Source: Tistrella mobilis KA081020-065
Lineage (GTDB): Bacteria > Pseudomonadota > Alphaproteobacteria > Tistrellales > Tistrellaceae
Length of the DNA stretch: 64,000 nucleotides
NCBI RefSeq assembly: GCF_000264455.2
Contig: NC_017956.1
Location: forward strand, 3,082,001 to 3,146,000
Direction of reading: 5' to 3'
Positions 48,544 to 54,573 of this stretch are shown piece by piece. The notes under the pieces are model-generated. The model made no database searches and had not been told where the DNA came from. It was given only the letters and a program-made list of their open reading frames with translations. Made by a program: the position numbers and the translations under genes. Each line of letters starts with the position of its first letter. Position 1 is the stretch's first letter.

Positions 48544-50064
48544 ATGCCCTATGACAGCCTGCGCGACTTCATGGCCCGCCTCGAGGCCACCGGCCGTCTG
48601 GTCCGGGTCCGCGAGCCGGTCTCCACCGTGCTCGAGATGACCGAGATCCAGACCCGGCTGCTGGCCGAAGGCGGCCCGGCGGTGCTGTTCGAAAAGCCGG
48701 TGATGCCGGATGGCAGCCTGTCGACCATGCCGGTGCTGGTCAATCTGTTTGGCACGGTGGAACGGGTCGCCTGGGGCATGGACCGGGAACCGCCGCAGCT
48801 CCGCGGCGTGGGCGAGACGCTGGCCTTCCTGCGCCAGCCCGAACCGCCGGGCGGCTGGCGCGAGGCGCTGGACATGCTGCCGCTGATGAAGACGGTGATG
48901 GCGATGCGGCCGAAGACGGTCTCGCGCGCGCCGGTGCAGGAGGTGGTCCTGCGCGGCGACGAGATCGACCTCACCCGCCTGCCGGTCCAGACCTGCTGGC
49001 CGGGAGAGCCGGCGCCGCTGATCACCTGGCCGCTGGTGGTCACCCGCGGCCCTGGCGGCGACAAGACCGACGGCTACAATCTCGGCATCTATCGCATGCA
49101 GGTGCTGGGCCGCGACCGCACGCTGATGCGCTGGCTGCGCCATCGCGGCGGCGCCCAGCATCATCGCCGCTGGGGGCTGAACAAGCGCGAGCCGCTGCCG
49201 GCCGCAGCGGTGATCGGCGCCGATCCGGGCACGATCCTGGCCGCCGTGACGCCCGTGCCCGACACGCTGTCGGAATACCAGTTCGCCGGCCTGCTGCGCG
49301 GCCGCAAGGTGGAGCTGGTCGATGCGGTCAGCCAGCCGCTGAAGGTGCCGGCCACGGCCGAAATCGTGCTGGAAGGCGAGGTCAGCCTCGACGATTACGG
49401 CGACGAGGGGCCCTATGGCGACCACACCGGCTATTACAACAATGTCGAGCCCTTCCCGGTCTTCCGGGTGACGGCGGTGACCATGCGCCGCCAGCCGATC
49501 TATCTCTCCACCTTCACCGGCCGGCCGCCGGACGAGCCCTCGGTGCTGGGCGAGGCGTTGAACGAGGTGTTCATCCCGCTGATCCGCCAGCAATTCCCCG
49601 AAATCGTCGACTTCTGGCTGCCGCCCGAGGGCTGTTCCTACCGCATCGCCGTGGTGTCGATGCGCAAGGCCTATCCGGGCCATGCCAAGCGGGTGATGAT
49701 GGGGGTGTGGTCCTATCTCCGCCAGTTCATGTACACCAAATGGGTGATCGTGGTGGATGACGACATCAATGCGCGCGACTGGAAGGACGTGATGTGGGCG
49801 ATGTCGACCCGCATGGACCCGGCGCGCGACATCACCGTCATCGAGAACACCCCCATCGACTATCTGGACTTCGCAAGCCCCGAATCCGGCCTCGGCTCCA
49901 AGATCGGCCTGGATGCCACCAACAAATGGCCGCCCGAGACCAAGCGCGAATGGGGCAGGGAACTGCGCATGGACCAGGCGGTCATCGACCGGATCGACCA
50001 GATCTGGCCGAAGCTGGGACTGCCGGGATCGGGGCAGGCGATCTGGAAGCCGGTGAAGGACTGA
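48544..50064 (+). CDS. ubiD: UbiD family decarboxylase
   Basis: UbiD decarboxylates 3-polyprenyl-4-hydroxybenzoate using prenylated FMN made by UbiX. The 506-residue protein has the prFMN/metal-binding region ([19 protein letters not shown]) and the [19 protein letters not shown] stretch. Length and motifs fit the ubiquinone-pathway enzyme rather than aromatic-acid decarboxylases, and ubiA lies just upstream. UbiX is not in this window. Confidence 0.94.
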
Positions 50065-50142: not shown

Positions 50143-51906
50143 ATGACGACGATCGGGGCCGTGATCAGAAACATGATGCCCTCGGGAACCAATCCGGGCG
50201 GCGACGATCCGGATTGGTCGACCTGCCCGGAATGGCCTCCGGATCTGTTTGGCGTCACTGCGACACTGATCGAGCGTACGGGCCTCTACTCACATGCCTG
50301 GCTTTACGCTCATCAATCGACGCATGCCTCGATGGCCTCGTCTGAAAAAAGTTCCATCCGAGCCGCCGGACGCGGCTGGCGCGACAAAGGCGTGCCGGAC
50401 TCGTACACCAAGCGATTGTGGCACGAGGTCACAGGCGGCGCAGATCACGTCGATCTCCAGGCTCTGGCCCACACGGCACCTTCCCACCCCCTCGCCCGCA
50501 AGCTGATCACCTTGATGTGCATCGCAGATGAAGCGGCAGAGGGTATGGGATTCGTTCCGAAGACCCACGTGCCTGCCAACGGGCCGTCCCCGGACAGAAT
50601 ATCCCCGTTCACGCGGGCAGTGCTCGGTGCAACCATTGCGGCGGAACCCGCCTACACGACGCGAGACGCGACGGCTACATCGGCGGTTATGCCGAAATTG
50701 CCGCATTTCCCGCGGAGCCTGACGCTTGCCGTCACGCCGCTGGAGGCCGTCGTCTTCCCGAAAAGCCGGCTTCCCGATGTCGGCTGCACGTTGCGGTCTA
50801 TGTCGCACAATCTGGCGTTGCTGCCGCCCCGGAGCATGGTGGAAGCCAACTGGCTTATCTCAGGCCTCGCGACTGATCCGGAACATCACCGGCCGCTCGG
50901 CATCCTGTTGATACCGTGGCCCACACGCGTGAATGGCAGCCTGTTCAAGGCCGAGCGTAGAGACGCGGAAGAACCCGGATACTTCACCGTCGATGTCGCA
51001 GGCTATGATGATGCCCTCTCCGGGCCAACCAACGTCTCAAGACTGGCCGGTATGATCGCCGGCCTGATCCAGGCAGGCGAGAAGGAACTGGGCGAGATTC
51101 ATGCCGTCTTTCTTCCGGAATGCGCCCTGCCGACCGAGATCGCGGAGGACTTGGCGAAAGAGGTCGCACGACGCCATCCGCGGCTGCAGCTCTTCATCTC
51201 CGGCGCCATCGGCAAGCCGGCCCACTCCGAGGCAATGCCCCGCAATCTCGCCTTCACCGCGTCGACGGCAGACGGCACCGTCCAACGCAGCTGGACGCAG
51301 AGCAAGCACCATCGCTGGAAGCTCAACGGTGATCAGATCCGGCGCTACCATATGGGGCACGTTCTCGACCCCACGCGCGAATGGTGGGAATATATCGACG
51401 TGAGCGGCCGGACCTGCCATTTCAGCGTCATTGACAATGATCTGTCCCTGGCGGTTCTGATCTGTGAAGATCTCGCCCGCTTCGACCCGGTCCTGCCGGT
51501 GATCAACGCCATCGGCCCCAGTCTCGTGGTGGCGCTGCTGATGGATGGACCGCAACTCGAGAAACGTTGGCCGGGCCGATATGCCACCGTCCTTGCCGAG
51601 GATCCGGGCTCATCGGTCCTGACCTTCACGTCCACGGCCCTGATCGACCGACAGCATCAGGCCGGCGCGCCGAACATCCGCACGATCGCACTCTGGAAAC
51701 AGCCCCGTGGCCTGGCACAGGAACTGTCGATCGGCCCGGATGATCAGGCTCTCGCCTTGTGCCTTGTCCGCGAGCATCGGCAACAGATATCCATCGATGG
51801 TCGCTCCAGGAACAGCTTCTTTCTGTCGCTGGCAGGCGTCCGGGCCGTGAAGCCTCCCGATCCGGCGGTGTTGCCACGCAGGAAGTCATTGAACAAACCG
51901 ACGTAG
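50143..51906 (+). CDS. Large nitrilase-superfamily-like protein of unknown function
   Basis: This 587-residue protein is not a standard family member. Its C-terminal half (about 245-560) reads as a carbon-nitrogen hydrolase (nitrilase) domain: Glu326 in HAVFLPECALP, Lys393 in SKHHRWKLNGD and Cys441 in LAVLICEDLARF have the order and spacing (67 and 48) of the catalytic Glu-Lys-Cys triad. The first 240 residues match nothing I know. No signal peptide is seen. GGGAG lies six bases before the ATG. Codon and base use are noticeably less GC-rich than ubiD or the genes after 52243, and the gene sits alone with a 61-residue frame, suggesting horizontal acquisition. A defence or nucleotide-processing role is only a guess. 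Confidence 0.7.
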   Translation: MTTIGAVIRNMMPSGTNPGGDDPDWSTCPEWPPDLFGVTATLIERTGLYSHAWLYAHQSTHASMASSEKSSIRAAGRGWRDKGVPDSYTKRLWHEVTGGADHVDLQALAHTAPSHPLARKLITLMCIADEAAEGMGFVPKTHVPANGPSPDRISPFTRAVLGATIAAEPAYTTRDATATSAVMPKLPHFPRSLTLAVTPLEAVVFPKSRLPDVGCTLRSMSHNLALLPPRSMVEANWLISGLATDPEHHRPLGILLIPWPTRVNGSLFKAERRDAEEPGYFTVDVAGYDDALSGPTNVSRLAGMIAGLIQAGEKELGEIHAVFLPECALPTEIAEDLAKEVARRHPRLQLFISGAIGKPAHSEAMPRNLAFTASTADGTVQRSWTQSKHHRWKLNGDQIRRYHMGHVLDPTREWWEYIDVSGRTCHFSVIDNDLSLAVLICEDLARFDPVLPVINAIGPSLVVALLMDGPQLEKRWPGRYATVLAEDPGSSVLTFTSTALIDRQHQAGAPNIRTIALWKQPRGLAQELSIGPDDQALALCLVREHRQQISIDGRSRNSFFLSLAGVRAVKPPDPAVLPRRKSLNKPT

Positions 51907-51962
51907 CATCCTAACTTGACGTCTACTCCCGGTGATCACCCGCCAAAATCAGGCGCTGACAA

Positions 51963-52148
51963 ATGAACAAGCGAATTTATCAGATCAACGATACCCGGGC
52001 AGAACCCTCCCTTGTCGCTGATCTGCGCAGGATCTTTGAAGCCCTGCCGCCAAGTGAGACGGATGAAGCGGTCTCACGGCGGTTGCGCGCCATGACGCAA
52101 CGTGTCCTGGCCGACGAAGAAGCGCGGCGCCAGAGGCTGGCCGGCTGA
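51963..52148 (+). CDS. Small hypothetical protein downstream of the nitrilase-like gene
   Basis: The 61-residue product is hydrophilic and helical (SLVADLRRIFEALPPS, then RRLRAMTQRVLADEEARRQRL), with no motif I recognise. There is no good ribosome-binding site. It follows the nitrilase-like gene by 56 bases and shares its lower GC, so it may belong to the same accessory island. Confidence 0.5.
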   Translation: MNKRIYQINDTRAEPSLVADLRRIFEALPPSETDEAVSRRLRAMTQRVLADEEARRQRLAG

Positions 52149-52242
52149 GCCGATCGGAAGCGCACACCCGCCCTTCGTTCACGATACTGCCCGACCGTCG
52201 CGAAGCTGCCACGCATCCATGCTACCGTCGTCCGTCCCGCCC

Positions 52243-53094
52243 ATGGCCACGGATGACACCCGCATGCTGCGCATCCTCCAGATCACCGACACCCATATCA
52301 GCCCCACCAAGCCGCATTTCGCATCGAACTGGGCGCCGGTCGCGGCGCTGGCGCGGGCGATTGCGCCGGATCTGGTGGTCCACACCGGTGACGTGACCGT
52401 CGACGGCGCCGATATGGTGGAGGATCTGGCCCATTGCCGCTGGCTGATGGACGGGCTGGAGCTGCCCTGGGCGGCCGTGCCCGGCAATCACGATGTCGGC
52501 AGCGAGAACCCCGAACATTTCCAGGCGGTGAACGATCTCCGCATCTCGCGCTGGGAAGCCCATTTCGGCCCGGACCGCTGGCTGCGCGACGCCGGGCCGT
52601 GGCGGCTGATCGGGCTGAACGCCATGCTGATGGGATCGGGCCATCCGCGTGAGGCGGAGCAGGCGGACTGGGCCGGCGAGGTGCTGGCCGAGGCGGACGC
52701 CACCGGCCGTCCCGTGGCGCTTTTCCTGCACAAGCCGCTGTTCCTGAACGACCCCGACGAAGACGACCGCGGCTATTGGAGCGTGCCTGGCCGCGCACGC
52801 GGGCGCTATGTGGAGGCGATCCGCCGGGGCACGGTGAAACTGGTCGCCTCGGGCCATCTCCACACCGCCCGGATCTTCCGCCGCGACGGCACGGTCTTCG
52901 CCTTCGGCGCCTCCTCGGGCTTCATCGTCGACAAGCTCGCCCCGGCCGATATTCCAGGTGAAAAGCGGCTGGGGGCGACGCTGCACCTGCTGGACGAGAA
53001 GGGCACGGTCGAATCGCGCCTGCTGAGCCCCGAAGGGCTCGACACCTATGTGATCGACGACGTCGCGCACGAGGTCTATCCGCCGCGCAGCTGA
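52243..53094 (+). CDS. Calcineurin-like metallophosphoesterase
   Basis: This about 283-residue protein has all blocks of the binuclear metallophosphoesterase family: D16-T-H18 in QITDTHIS, Asp50 in VHTGDVTVDG, G81-N-H-D84 in VPGNHDVGS, and later LFLHKPLF and ASGHLHTAR. The fold resembles cyclic-nucleotide or phosphodiester phosphodiesterases (CpdA-like). The start is uncertain: ATG 52219, 52243 and 52264 are all in frame and none has a strong ribosome-binding site. Substrate unknown. Confidence 0.88.
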   Translation: MATDDTRMLRILQITDTHISPTKPHFASNWAPVAALARAIAPDLVVHTGDVTVDGADMVEDLAHCRWLMDGLELPWAAVPGNHDVGSENPEHFQAVNDLRISRWEAHFGPDRWLRDAGPWRLIGLNAMLMGSGHPREAEQADWAGEVLAEADATGRPVALFLHKPLFLNDPDEDDRGYWSVPGRARGRYVEAIRRGTVKLVASGHLHTARIFRRDGTVFAFGASSGFIVDKLAPADIPGEKRLGATLHLLDEKGTVESRLLSPEGLDTYVIDDVAHEVYPPRS

Positions 53095-53223
53095 CCGGCC
53101 GACCATTCCATATGCCGTGGCGCTGGTGTTCCGCGCCGCTTCGTCCCATATCTAGGCCTCGGGCCTGCGCACCCCGTCGGGCGATGCACCCCGAGGCCCG
53201 GGACGATGCCGCACGAGGACCAG

Positions 53224-54573
53224 ATGACCGATACCGGACTTGGAAACGCTCTCGACCTGCTCGAAGACCTGATCGCGCGCGCGAAGCGTGCCGGTGCCGA
53301 CCAGGCGGATGCGCTGATGGTCGAAAGCCGTGCGCTGTCGGTGCAGCGCCGGCTGGGCAAGATCGAGGAACTGACCCGGTCGGATGGCGGCGATCTGGGG
53401 CTCCGGGTCCTGGTCGGGCGCCGTCAGGCGATCGTCTCGACCGCCGATCTCAGGCCCGGCAGCCTGGACGCGCTGGCCGAGCGCGCGGTCGCCATGGCCA
53501 ATGTCGTGCCCGAGGACCGCTTTGCGGGCCTGGCCGAGCCGGGCGAGATCGCGCGCGAGATTCCGGCGCTGGAGATCTACGACCCGACCGAATTCAGCGC
53601 CGAGGATCTGCTCGCCTGGGCCGAGACCTGCGAAGAGGCGGCCCGCGGGGTCGAGGGCGTGACCAATTCCGAGGGCGCCGGTGCCTCTCAATCCCACAGC
53701 ATGATCGCGCTCGCCGCCTCCAACGGCTTCCGCGGCGCCTATCGCACCAGCCGCTTCACGGTCGGTGCCAGCGTGATCGCGGGCGAGGGGCTGAACATGG
53801 TCCGCGGCCATGAATACACCTCGAAGCGTTTCGTGGCCGACATGGACGATCTGGCCACGATCGGCCGGATCGCGGGCGAGCGGACCGTCGCGCGGCTGAA
53901 CCCGCGCCGGCCGAAGACCGCGCGGGTGCCGGTGGTGTTCGACCGGCGGGTGTCGCGCATGCTGGTCGCGGCCATCGCGTCGGCCGTCAACGGGGCGGCG
54001 GTCACCCGCGGCACCAGCTTCCTGAAGGACCGGATGGGCGAGCGCATCGCCTGCGACGCCTTCACCATCATCGACGACCCGTTCCGCGAGCGGGCACCCG
54101 CCTCACATCCCTTCGACGGCGAGGGCATTGCCGGTGCGCCGCTGACCGTGGTCGAAGGCGGGGTGCTGAAATCCTGGCTGCTGGACTGCCGCTCCGCCCG
54201 TCAGCTGGGGCTGAAGAGCACCGGCCATGCCGCCCGCGGCGCCGGATCGGCCCCCAGCCCGGCCTCGAGCAATCTTTATCTGGCGCCGGGCACGCTCAGC
54301 CGCGACGAGCTGATTGCGAAGATCGGCACCGGCCTGCTGGTCGATGAAACAATGGGCTCGGGTGTGAACGTCGTCACCGGCGATTTCAGCCAGGGTGTGG
54401 CAGGCTTCTGGATCGAGAACGGCGAAATTGCCTATCCGGTGAACGAGATCACGGTTGCAGGGCGCATCCAGGACATGCTGATGTCGGTGGAACCCGCCTC
54501 CGATCTCGAATTCCGCAGCGGCACCGATGCGCCGACGCTTGCCGTCGGCGGCCTGACCGTCGCCGGCGCCTGA
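53224..54573 (+). CDS. pmbA: Metalloprotease PmbA (TldE)
   Basis: PmbA is the non-zinc partner of TldD in the TldD-TldE peptidase. The 449-residue protein has the family pattern (RAKRAGADQADALMVES, DLGLRVLVGRRQA, GEGLNMVRGHEYTSK, GINVVTGDFSQG-like SGVNVVTGDFSQG and GFWIENGEIAYPVNEIT) and lacks HEXXXH, as expected. ATG 53224 is preceded by GAGG six bases upstream; ATG 53206 is possible. Its partner tldD is 15 kb away at 36594. Confidence 0.95.
   Translation: MTDTGLGNALDLLEDLIARAKRAGADQADALMVESRALSVQRRLGKIEELTRSDGGDLGLRVLVGRRQAIVSTADLRPGSLDALAERAVAMANVVPEDRFAGLAEPGEIAREIPALEIYDPTEFSAEDLLAWAETCEEAARGVEGVTNSEGAGASQSHSMIALAASNGFRGAYRTSRFTVGASVIAGEGLNMVRGHEYTSKRFVADMDDLATIGRIAGERTVARLNPRRPKTARVPVVFDRRVSRMLVAAIASAVNGAAVTRGTSFLKDRMGERIACDAFTIIDDPFRERAPASHPFDGEGIAGAPLTVVEGGVLKSWLLDCRSARQLGLKSTGHAARGAGSAPSPASSNLYLAPGTLSRDELIAKIGTGLLVDETMGSGVNVVTGDFSQGVAGFWIENGEIAYPVNEITVAGRIQDMLMSVEPASDLEFRSGTDAPTLAVGGLTVAGA

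Follow-up and report, generated by a model that had tools for sequence, protein, structure and literature searches.

What is the role of a large protein with a nitrilase-like active site that is encoded among housekeeping genes in Tistrella mobilis KA081020-065? The gene in question, encoding the protein P0001, lies in a window of 64,000 nucleotides (contig NC_017956.1, positions 3,082,001 to 3,146,000), which is the whole stretch of DNA analysed and to which all coordinates refer. A short gene encoding the protein P0002 follows, and both open reading frames are present as the preliminary description of this DNA had stated. The gene pair and its borders are as follows:

48544..50064, forward strand: ubiD, the left border gene, given as context only (Pfam UbiD domains).
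50143..51906, forward strand: P0001 gene, encoding a 587-residue nitrilase-fold protein (open reading frame; member of a 20-member family).
51963..52148, forward strand: P0002 gene, encoding a 61-residue protein with no assigned function, 56 bases downstream of the P0001 gene.
53206..54573, forward strand: pmbA/tldD, the right framework gene, given as context only (Pfam).

The P0001 and P0002 genes are probably co-transcribed. No Rfam match was obtained around the P0001 gene, and no promoter consensus was found near it. P0001 matches no Pfam or NCBIfam family, even at an E-value of 5, and is below the gathering cut-off of PF00795 (CN_hydrolase). Its sole PADLOC match, to the RT_UG5-nitrilase model, is non-significant (E 0.093, residues 317-445). 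P0002 matches nothing above cut-off in Pfam, PADLOC or NCBIfam, and nothing at an E-value of 1 among plasmid records.

Pfam assigns the left flank to an aminotransferase, GshA, an RNA methyltransferase, UbiA and UbiD, and the right flank to a calcineurin-type phosphoesterase, PmbA/TldD, an inositol-monophosphatase family protein, an ABC protein and a DUF374 protein. All ten flanking genes scanned around the window copy are housekeeping genes by Pfam, one of them with a function that is not known. The locus had been called an accessory island. The signs of accessory origin hold up, but "island" is generous for only two genes amid housekeeping genes. The drop in GC content and codon use on which the term relied is real, as GC3 is 0.745 in P0001 and 0.661 in P0002, versus 0.848-0.918 in six flanking genes.

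In the tree of the 20 family members, the window protein groups with the members from Cupriavidus, Massilia and a viral contig, L041 (support 88/89, not full). The other 11 alphaproteobacterial members form a branch (100/96) that does not include the window protein; long branches leave other parts of the tree unsure. All three genomes of the genus, the window's included, hold the P0001 gene at the same place, and the copies in the two other genomes are at 97% identity. When the surroundings of ubiD were compared in four genomes of the class, two were found to keep ubiD and pmbA with other genes between them and no nitrilase, and the remaining two feature a stretch at ubiD with neither a nitrilase nor pmbA. 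The tree, the GC3 values and the variable ubiD-pmbA interval are signs that P0001 was laterally acquired. For P0001, P0002 and the phosphoesterase gene, dS to the other species (0.09-0.11) is similar to dS within the same species (0.10-0.12), whereas for five other flanking genes the other species is about twice as far as the same species, or more. The low dS over positions 50143-53094, phosphoesterase gene included, suggests exchange or recombination at this spot. The dN/dS of P0001 (0.11-0.13) denotes purifying selection, which indicates that the gene is in use. P0002 shows zero amino-acid change in the two other genomes of the genus, at a dS of 0.09-0.11.

The modular organization of P0001 was derived from an AlphaFold2 model and from the family alignment, which consists of 20 rows, the window protein counted in. 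All features are on the forward strand:

50143..50877, forward strand: N-terminal domain (residues 1-245), modelled as predominantly helical, with residues conserved in the alignment.
50878..51807, forward strand: nitrilase-fold domain, residues ~246-555 (Foldseek, VIA-align).
51118..51120, forward strand: Glu326, proposed general base of the triad (20/20 rows).
51304..51306, forward strand: Lys388 in the SKHHRW motif, proposed triad lysine (20/20 rows; aligned with GKxH of DRT1).
51388..51390, forward strand: Glu416 of the WWE motif, possibly the second glutamate of the nitrilase tetrad (20/20 rows).
51463..51465, forward strand: Cys441 in the ICEDLAR motif, proposed nucleophile (20/20 rows).

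In nitrilase-fold enzymes, a cysteine, together with a glutamate and a lysine, attacks amides and nitriles, and oligomerisation is usually needed. The preliminary description had proposed Glu326, Lys393 and Cys441 as the triad. Glu326 and Cys441 are borne out by their invariance. Lys393 is ruled out, as this position is Lys in just 6 of the 20 rows, versus all 20 for Lys388. The latter is proposed as the catalytic lysine because it is invariant and lies opposite the GKxH motif of DRT1, a reverse transcriptase (RT)-nitrilase fusion protein, in the profile comparison. Glu416, which may be the second glutamate, is one of several further invariant residues, the others being D443, D468, Q471, R475, W476 and Y480.

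The AlphaFold2 model, obtained from a five-row alignment, is of moderate quality (mean pLDDT 57, pTM 0.58) and is best near residues 301-350. The fold predicted is the nitrilase alpha-beta-beta-alpha sandwich, according to both Foldseek and VIA-align; its absence would have counted against the preliminary description. The best 50 matches listed by Foldseek against the PDB all belong to the nitrilase superfamily (top E-value 1.9e-6), and the best VIA-align match is 9wpn_B (Z 13.8, rmsd 3.9, 227 aligned, model residues 251-554). Rows of VIA-align at most one Z unit apart count as tied; the top rows are tied, and hence no branch of the superfamily can be chosen. The viral structure library gave no match at an E-value of 0.001. 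Among five relatives scanned with PF00795, only the Deinococcus member L014 touches the profile (E 0.21, below cut-off). By its predicted fold and the order of its Glu, Lys and Cys residues, P0001 belongs to the nitrilase superfamily.

The N-terminal domain was found only in association with the nitrilase domain. Its conserved residues include F36, W79, D129, V204, K207 and G214. The motifs WPPDLFAxxAxLLxxSGxY, IADEA and PKSRTPxVGCTLRSLSHNLALLPP are common to many members, and the Vibrio-type members have them least. When the N-terminal part of the Azorhizobium member was used as the query, 10 of 10 plasmid matches fell inside family genes that were already known, and an N-terminal profile of 14 rows matched one of 299 genomes, in which it hit the Massilia member. 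The N-terminal ~240 residues, described earlier as unfamiliar, have thus been seen only joined to this nitrilase domain, and the N-terminal domain appears, from these searches, to be dedicated to the nitrilase-fold enzyme. This is what a regulatory or sensor part would be expected to show. Residues 1-250 alone gave no usable AlphaFold2 model (pLDDT 33.6). The whole-family profile matched just two designed helical proteins among PDB sequences, with E-values of 0.27 and 0.5.

Family members are rare, and many are carried by mobile elements. A tblastn search of 72,556 plasmid records matched 20, comprising 12 strong and 8 weak matches, all of the latter from Azospirillum. The strong matches are from Massilia, Cupriavidus, Agrobacterium (two), Rhizobium (three records, two of them from a single strain), Bradyrhizobium, Deinococcus, Sinorhizobium, Methylorubrum and Vibrio. 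The Azorhizobium member was found in one scan of genome contigs. Among 385 genomes of the class, 5 gave matches, three of them strong (the window genome and two others of its genus) and two weak. Among 398 genomes sampled from the phylum, only the window genome and that of Massilia did so. In the order of the Azorhizobium genome, 6 of 397 genomes matched, that genome counted and one member being split over two contigs; in the order of Massilia, the count was 3 of 349, Massilia counted and one being a degraded fragment. No viral contig was retrieved with P0001 as the query, and five were retrieved with the family alignment; two more viral-contig scans yielded no contigs beyond the same five. 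Neither the window protein nor a viral-contig member has a match among 50,697 phage records. The family is thus patchily distributed over plasmids, phage-like contigs and few genomes. P0001 is 27-39% identical to eleven relatives compared, and all 20 members share the architecture of an N-terminal part followed by the nitrilase domain.

In L065 (G1385) and in L062/L063 (G1099), the family gene carries internal stops or is split over contigs, which suggests gain and decay. The member on the Deinococcus plasmid (L014, 7953-13425) has 808 residues, with a C-terminal extension of ~200 residues, and is followed by an AAA_16-TPR protein.

The sources of the plasmid hosts, where named, are largely soil and plants, which fits the main rival to a defence role. 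According to this rival, P0001 is an accessory metabolic amidase or nitrilase that serves nitrogen scavenging or detoxification and has been disseminated by plasmids among bacteria of soil and plants. Most enzymes with the nitrilase fold are metabolic, a relative from the wider set in Azospirillum is annotated as a nitrilase-related hydrolase, and several plasmid relatives sit amid metabolic, transport or catabolic genes. However, the family is of very low occurrence, and its conserved ~240-residue N-terminal part is not seen elsewhere. Moreover, relatives confined to metabolic operons would have spoken against the proposal made in the preliminary description, and across 21 loci, ABC-type ATPases apart, no metabolic gene is found repeatedly next to the family gene. 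Nor do these loci have a constant partner gene. When the family gene and the frames that overlap it are set aside, the only genes that recur in at least two other loci are those of ABC-type ATPases and of transposase type.

Phage genes surround three of the five viral-contig members, which also argues against a metabolic role; these three are the ones whose neighbours were scanned, and the other two (L044 and L045) hold fragments. L043 is preceded by repressor and integrase genes, and a tail gene is close by. L042 sits between a repressor and a group of integrase and terminase/portal genes. The neighbours of L041 include a DNA methyltransferase of phage type and a tail gene. In the Methylorubrum plasmid pCMU01 (L017), the family gene is located 6 kb downstream of a Pycsar cyclase (E 2e-220). 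The order of genes in this plasmid is Pycsar cyclase, E2, PycTIR effector, peptidase, a hypothetical gene, the family gene, and then genes annotated as VPA1262-type and SIR2. Within this cluster (L017:454-17545), the peptidase is of the S8 type, and the family member is shorter at the 3' end than other members and lies beside an IS21 element.

P-loop proteins adjoin other members. A P-loop gene, whose GTPase-like match is below the Pfam cut-off, ends 12 bases upstream of the family gene in Agrobacterium sp. S7/73, where DGQHR/DpdB-like genes are found downstream. In G1038 (L067:6295-8751, reverse strand), an 819-residue P-loop protein is encoded 9 bases downstream of the member (AAA_16, E 0.0014, below cut-off). 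The P-loop genes of L011/L012 and L067 likely form operons with the nitrilase gene, and no mutual kinship of their products is detectable.

A small matched comparison gave no support for an enrichment of defence genes near the family genes. Open reading frames of at least 100 residues within ~5.5 kb around 15 members were scanned with PADLOC (E 1e-15) and compared with those of 15 control stretches located elsewhere on the same records. PADLOC families numbered 17 for 147 neighbour proteins versus 20 for 150 control proteins (150 of 153 were used), in a test of low power, with a small set and, in both lists, several rows that represent one protein or general-ATPase-like matches. The neighbour set does not include the window, the viral loci, L070, L072 and the duplicates L012 and L066. 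Also outside it are L017's Pycsar cyclase and the larger of the DGQHR genes in L011, both removed by the limit on range, and L014's TPR-ATPase. This null result is the strongest one against the defence reading, and it also favours the metabolic rival. Further points that weigh against defence are the housekeeping flanks of the window copy, the metabolic and transport genes around several plasmid relatives, the lack of matches among phage records and a similarity to DRT1 that is confined to the catalytic core. The defence role suggested in the preliminary description remains a proposal: one relative is near a Pycsar system and three are among phage genes, but the neighbourhoods of 15 relatives show no PADLOC excess. 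Weighing both sides, we consider a metabolic role rather unlikely, though no other rival comes as close.

Small open reading frames adjoin many family members, as P0002 does P0001. Those of the Vibrio-type members L042, L043 and L018 are related to each other (z 8 to 14 versus 200 shuffles), as are those of L010 and L011 (z 9), which score z 4 to 5 with that of L002. Between subclades, small frames are mostly unrelated, with the exception of L042 and L016 (z 6). The 15 small frames compared were picked by eye, and the kinship is for this reason suggestive only. Such pairs bring to mind a toxin-antitoxin or plasmid-maintenance system in which P0001 would be the toxin and the small adjacent gene the antitoxin or regulator. 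The kinship of small frames within subclades, the unchanged sequence of P0002 across three genomes and the location of many members on plasmids are all consistent with it. On the other hand, the small frames differ between subclades in sequence, side and strand, the Deinococcus member has no annotated small neighbour, and P0002 itself resembles no Pfam or NCBIfam family above cut-off. This explanation seems improbable, clearly more so than a metabolic role.

We favour, at roughly even chances, the view that P0001 is a mobile nitrilase-fold amidase free of any RT, which would serve a small conflict system as its effector; this system is probably directed against phages. What computation shows for P0001 is a nitrilase fold, a Glu-Lys-Cys site that is conserved, an N-terminal part dedicated to the enzyme, signs of lateral origin and purifying selection, and, for the family, a location on plasmids and phage-like contigs. 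The anti-phage reading draws on the precedent of DRT1, on the three members located among phage genes and on the one near a Pycsar system. The family's mobile carriage and patchy occurrence are likewise usual, although not strictly defining, for anti-phage systems.

For the mechanism, we infer an amidase activity, a substrate and a trigger. The helical N-terminal domain may keep the enzyme inactive, and may sense or receive the trigger, perhaps through control of oligomerisation as in other nitrilases. Once triggered, the enzyme would use Cys441 to attack an amide or nitrile group in some abundant small molecule, for which NAD or another nucleotide cofactor is only a guess. The attack would stop growth before phage release. 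The small neighbour protein, different in each subclade, may tune or inhibit the enzyme. In its action, P0001 would thus resemble the nitrilase half of DRT1, except that the trigger would be something other than DNA synthesis. More tentatively, and with considerable doubt, such proteins may form a family of immune effectors that each consist of a single protein, a nitrilase-fold amidase. Control of this amidase would fall to a dedicated sensor domain and a small, fast-evolving partner in place of an RT, and the amidase would stop phage growth by destroying an essential small molecule, for instance by deamidating a nucleotide cofactor.

The known systems closest to this proposal contain RTs. 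A 2026 article (PMC13275509) attributes to DRT1 a nitrilase effector domain, the substrate of which is not known, and describes nitrilases as not common in anti-phage defence. According to two other articles, nitrilase motifs occur in fusion with RTs of the unknown groups 1 and 5 (PMC8934634), and a UG5 RT with a C-terminal nitrilase, accompanied by a membrane protein, is one of the P4-like satellite systems tested for anti-phage defence (PMC9122126). A defence protein featuring a nitrilase without an RT is not described among the matches listed in our literature search, which lay outside most subscription journals and bioRxiv.

No RT is present near P0001, in agreement with the preliminary description; the sole RVT_1 match in the window genome is on another contig. 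RVT_1 matches occur in 2 of 12 member-holding records (W05 and W11), all of them more than 20 kb from the family gene; the records scanned are 11 plasmid records, free of their host chromosomes, and one genome, to the exclusion of draft-genome and viral loci. The RVT_1 frame of the window genome (L077:1309-3300, G000 contig 2) encodes 663 residues, the C-terminal half of which looks like Cas1. Upstream of it lies a frame in which DRSDWSWLQT units are repeated, which may reflect a CRISPR array accompanying an RT-Cas1 fusion.

The nitrilase-like domains of RT defence proteins had been put forward as a link to defence. This link is the only one to any family that PADLOC provides, and it is weak. 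Of five relatives, L002 (E 3.3e-4), L017 (0.0017) and L011 (0.012) match RT_UG5-nitrilase, in the catalytic segment only, and L014 and L018 do not. When the family profile was compared with that of five DRT1 proteins, the alignment was limited to the Glu-Lys-Cys core (probability 11%) and took in none of the 240 N-terminal residues, so that no N-terminal kinship to DRT1 is detectable. In contrast, hhalign aligns the family with the RT-free Azospirillum proteins L019 and L020 over 225 columns (98%, E 5.8e-14).

These comparisons also bear on whether P0001 is a worn-down DRT1-type protein that has lost its RT. Its triad aligns with that of DRT1, and another genome of the species holds a full DRT1. 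Nonetheless, all 20 members show conservation in the N-terminal 240 residues that fail to align with DRT1, the nitrilase domain resembles the Azospirillum proteins more than it does DRT1, and selection is purifying. This explanation, already disfavoured, is very improbable. The full-length DRT1 in question (1307 residues, E 6.3e-159 to PDB 9yfd) is encoded at a different place in G033 (contig 2, L036:7408-11331, reverse strand).

Compared with DRT1 (UG1 RT-nitrilase, PDB 9yfd), P0001 has a nitrilase domain with the same order of Glu, Lys and Cys motifs, and a small gene also follows closely in 3 of 4 DRT1 plasmid loci. P0001 differs in having no RT, half the length and no detectable N-terminal kinship, and the similarity is confined to the catalytic core, which other nitrilases share. 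9yfd is not among the best 50 fold matches listed, from a library that may not contain it. With respect to DRT1 and the class 3 defence RTs, P0001 features the nitrilase domain with Glu, Lys and Cys, in a motif alignment that is weak overall, and no RT domain in the same protein, as judged by Pfam. The UG5 RT-nitrilase, which has a transmembrane partner, corresponds to the only PADLOC model touched by P0001, through the non-significant match given above, and likewise differs in its RT.

The Azospirillum proteins of ~500 residues (L019 and L020), annotated as "nitrilase-related carbon-nitrogen hydrolase", share with P0001 the KxHxWxLDxxQ and ICEDLxR motifs and an N-terminal extension. They differ in that L019 reaches Pfam CN_hydrolase (E 2e-9), and the profile alignment covers the nitrilase domain only. 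L019 also weakly matches the PADLOC model RTasNitrilase. The glutaminase domain of glutamine-dependent NAD+ synthetase has an ICED-type nucleophile motif. It shares the nitrilase fold with P0001 and is among the tied structural matches (4f4h_A, Z 12.8), but P0001 has no synthetase domain (Pfam, E 5), and direct sequence comparison is weak.

If the favoured reading is true, a stand-alone family with the catalytic core of DRT1 would mean that killing by nitrilase can be coupled, as a module, to more than one trigger, and would offer a smaller, RT-free protein in which to seek the substrate of the nitrilase effector. Set against these systems, P0001 is a known fold as chemistry and is new as an architecture.
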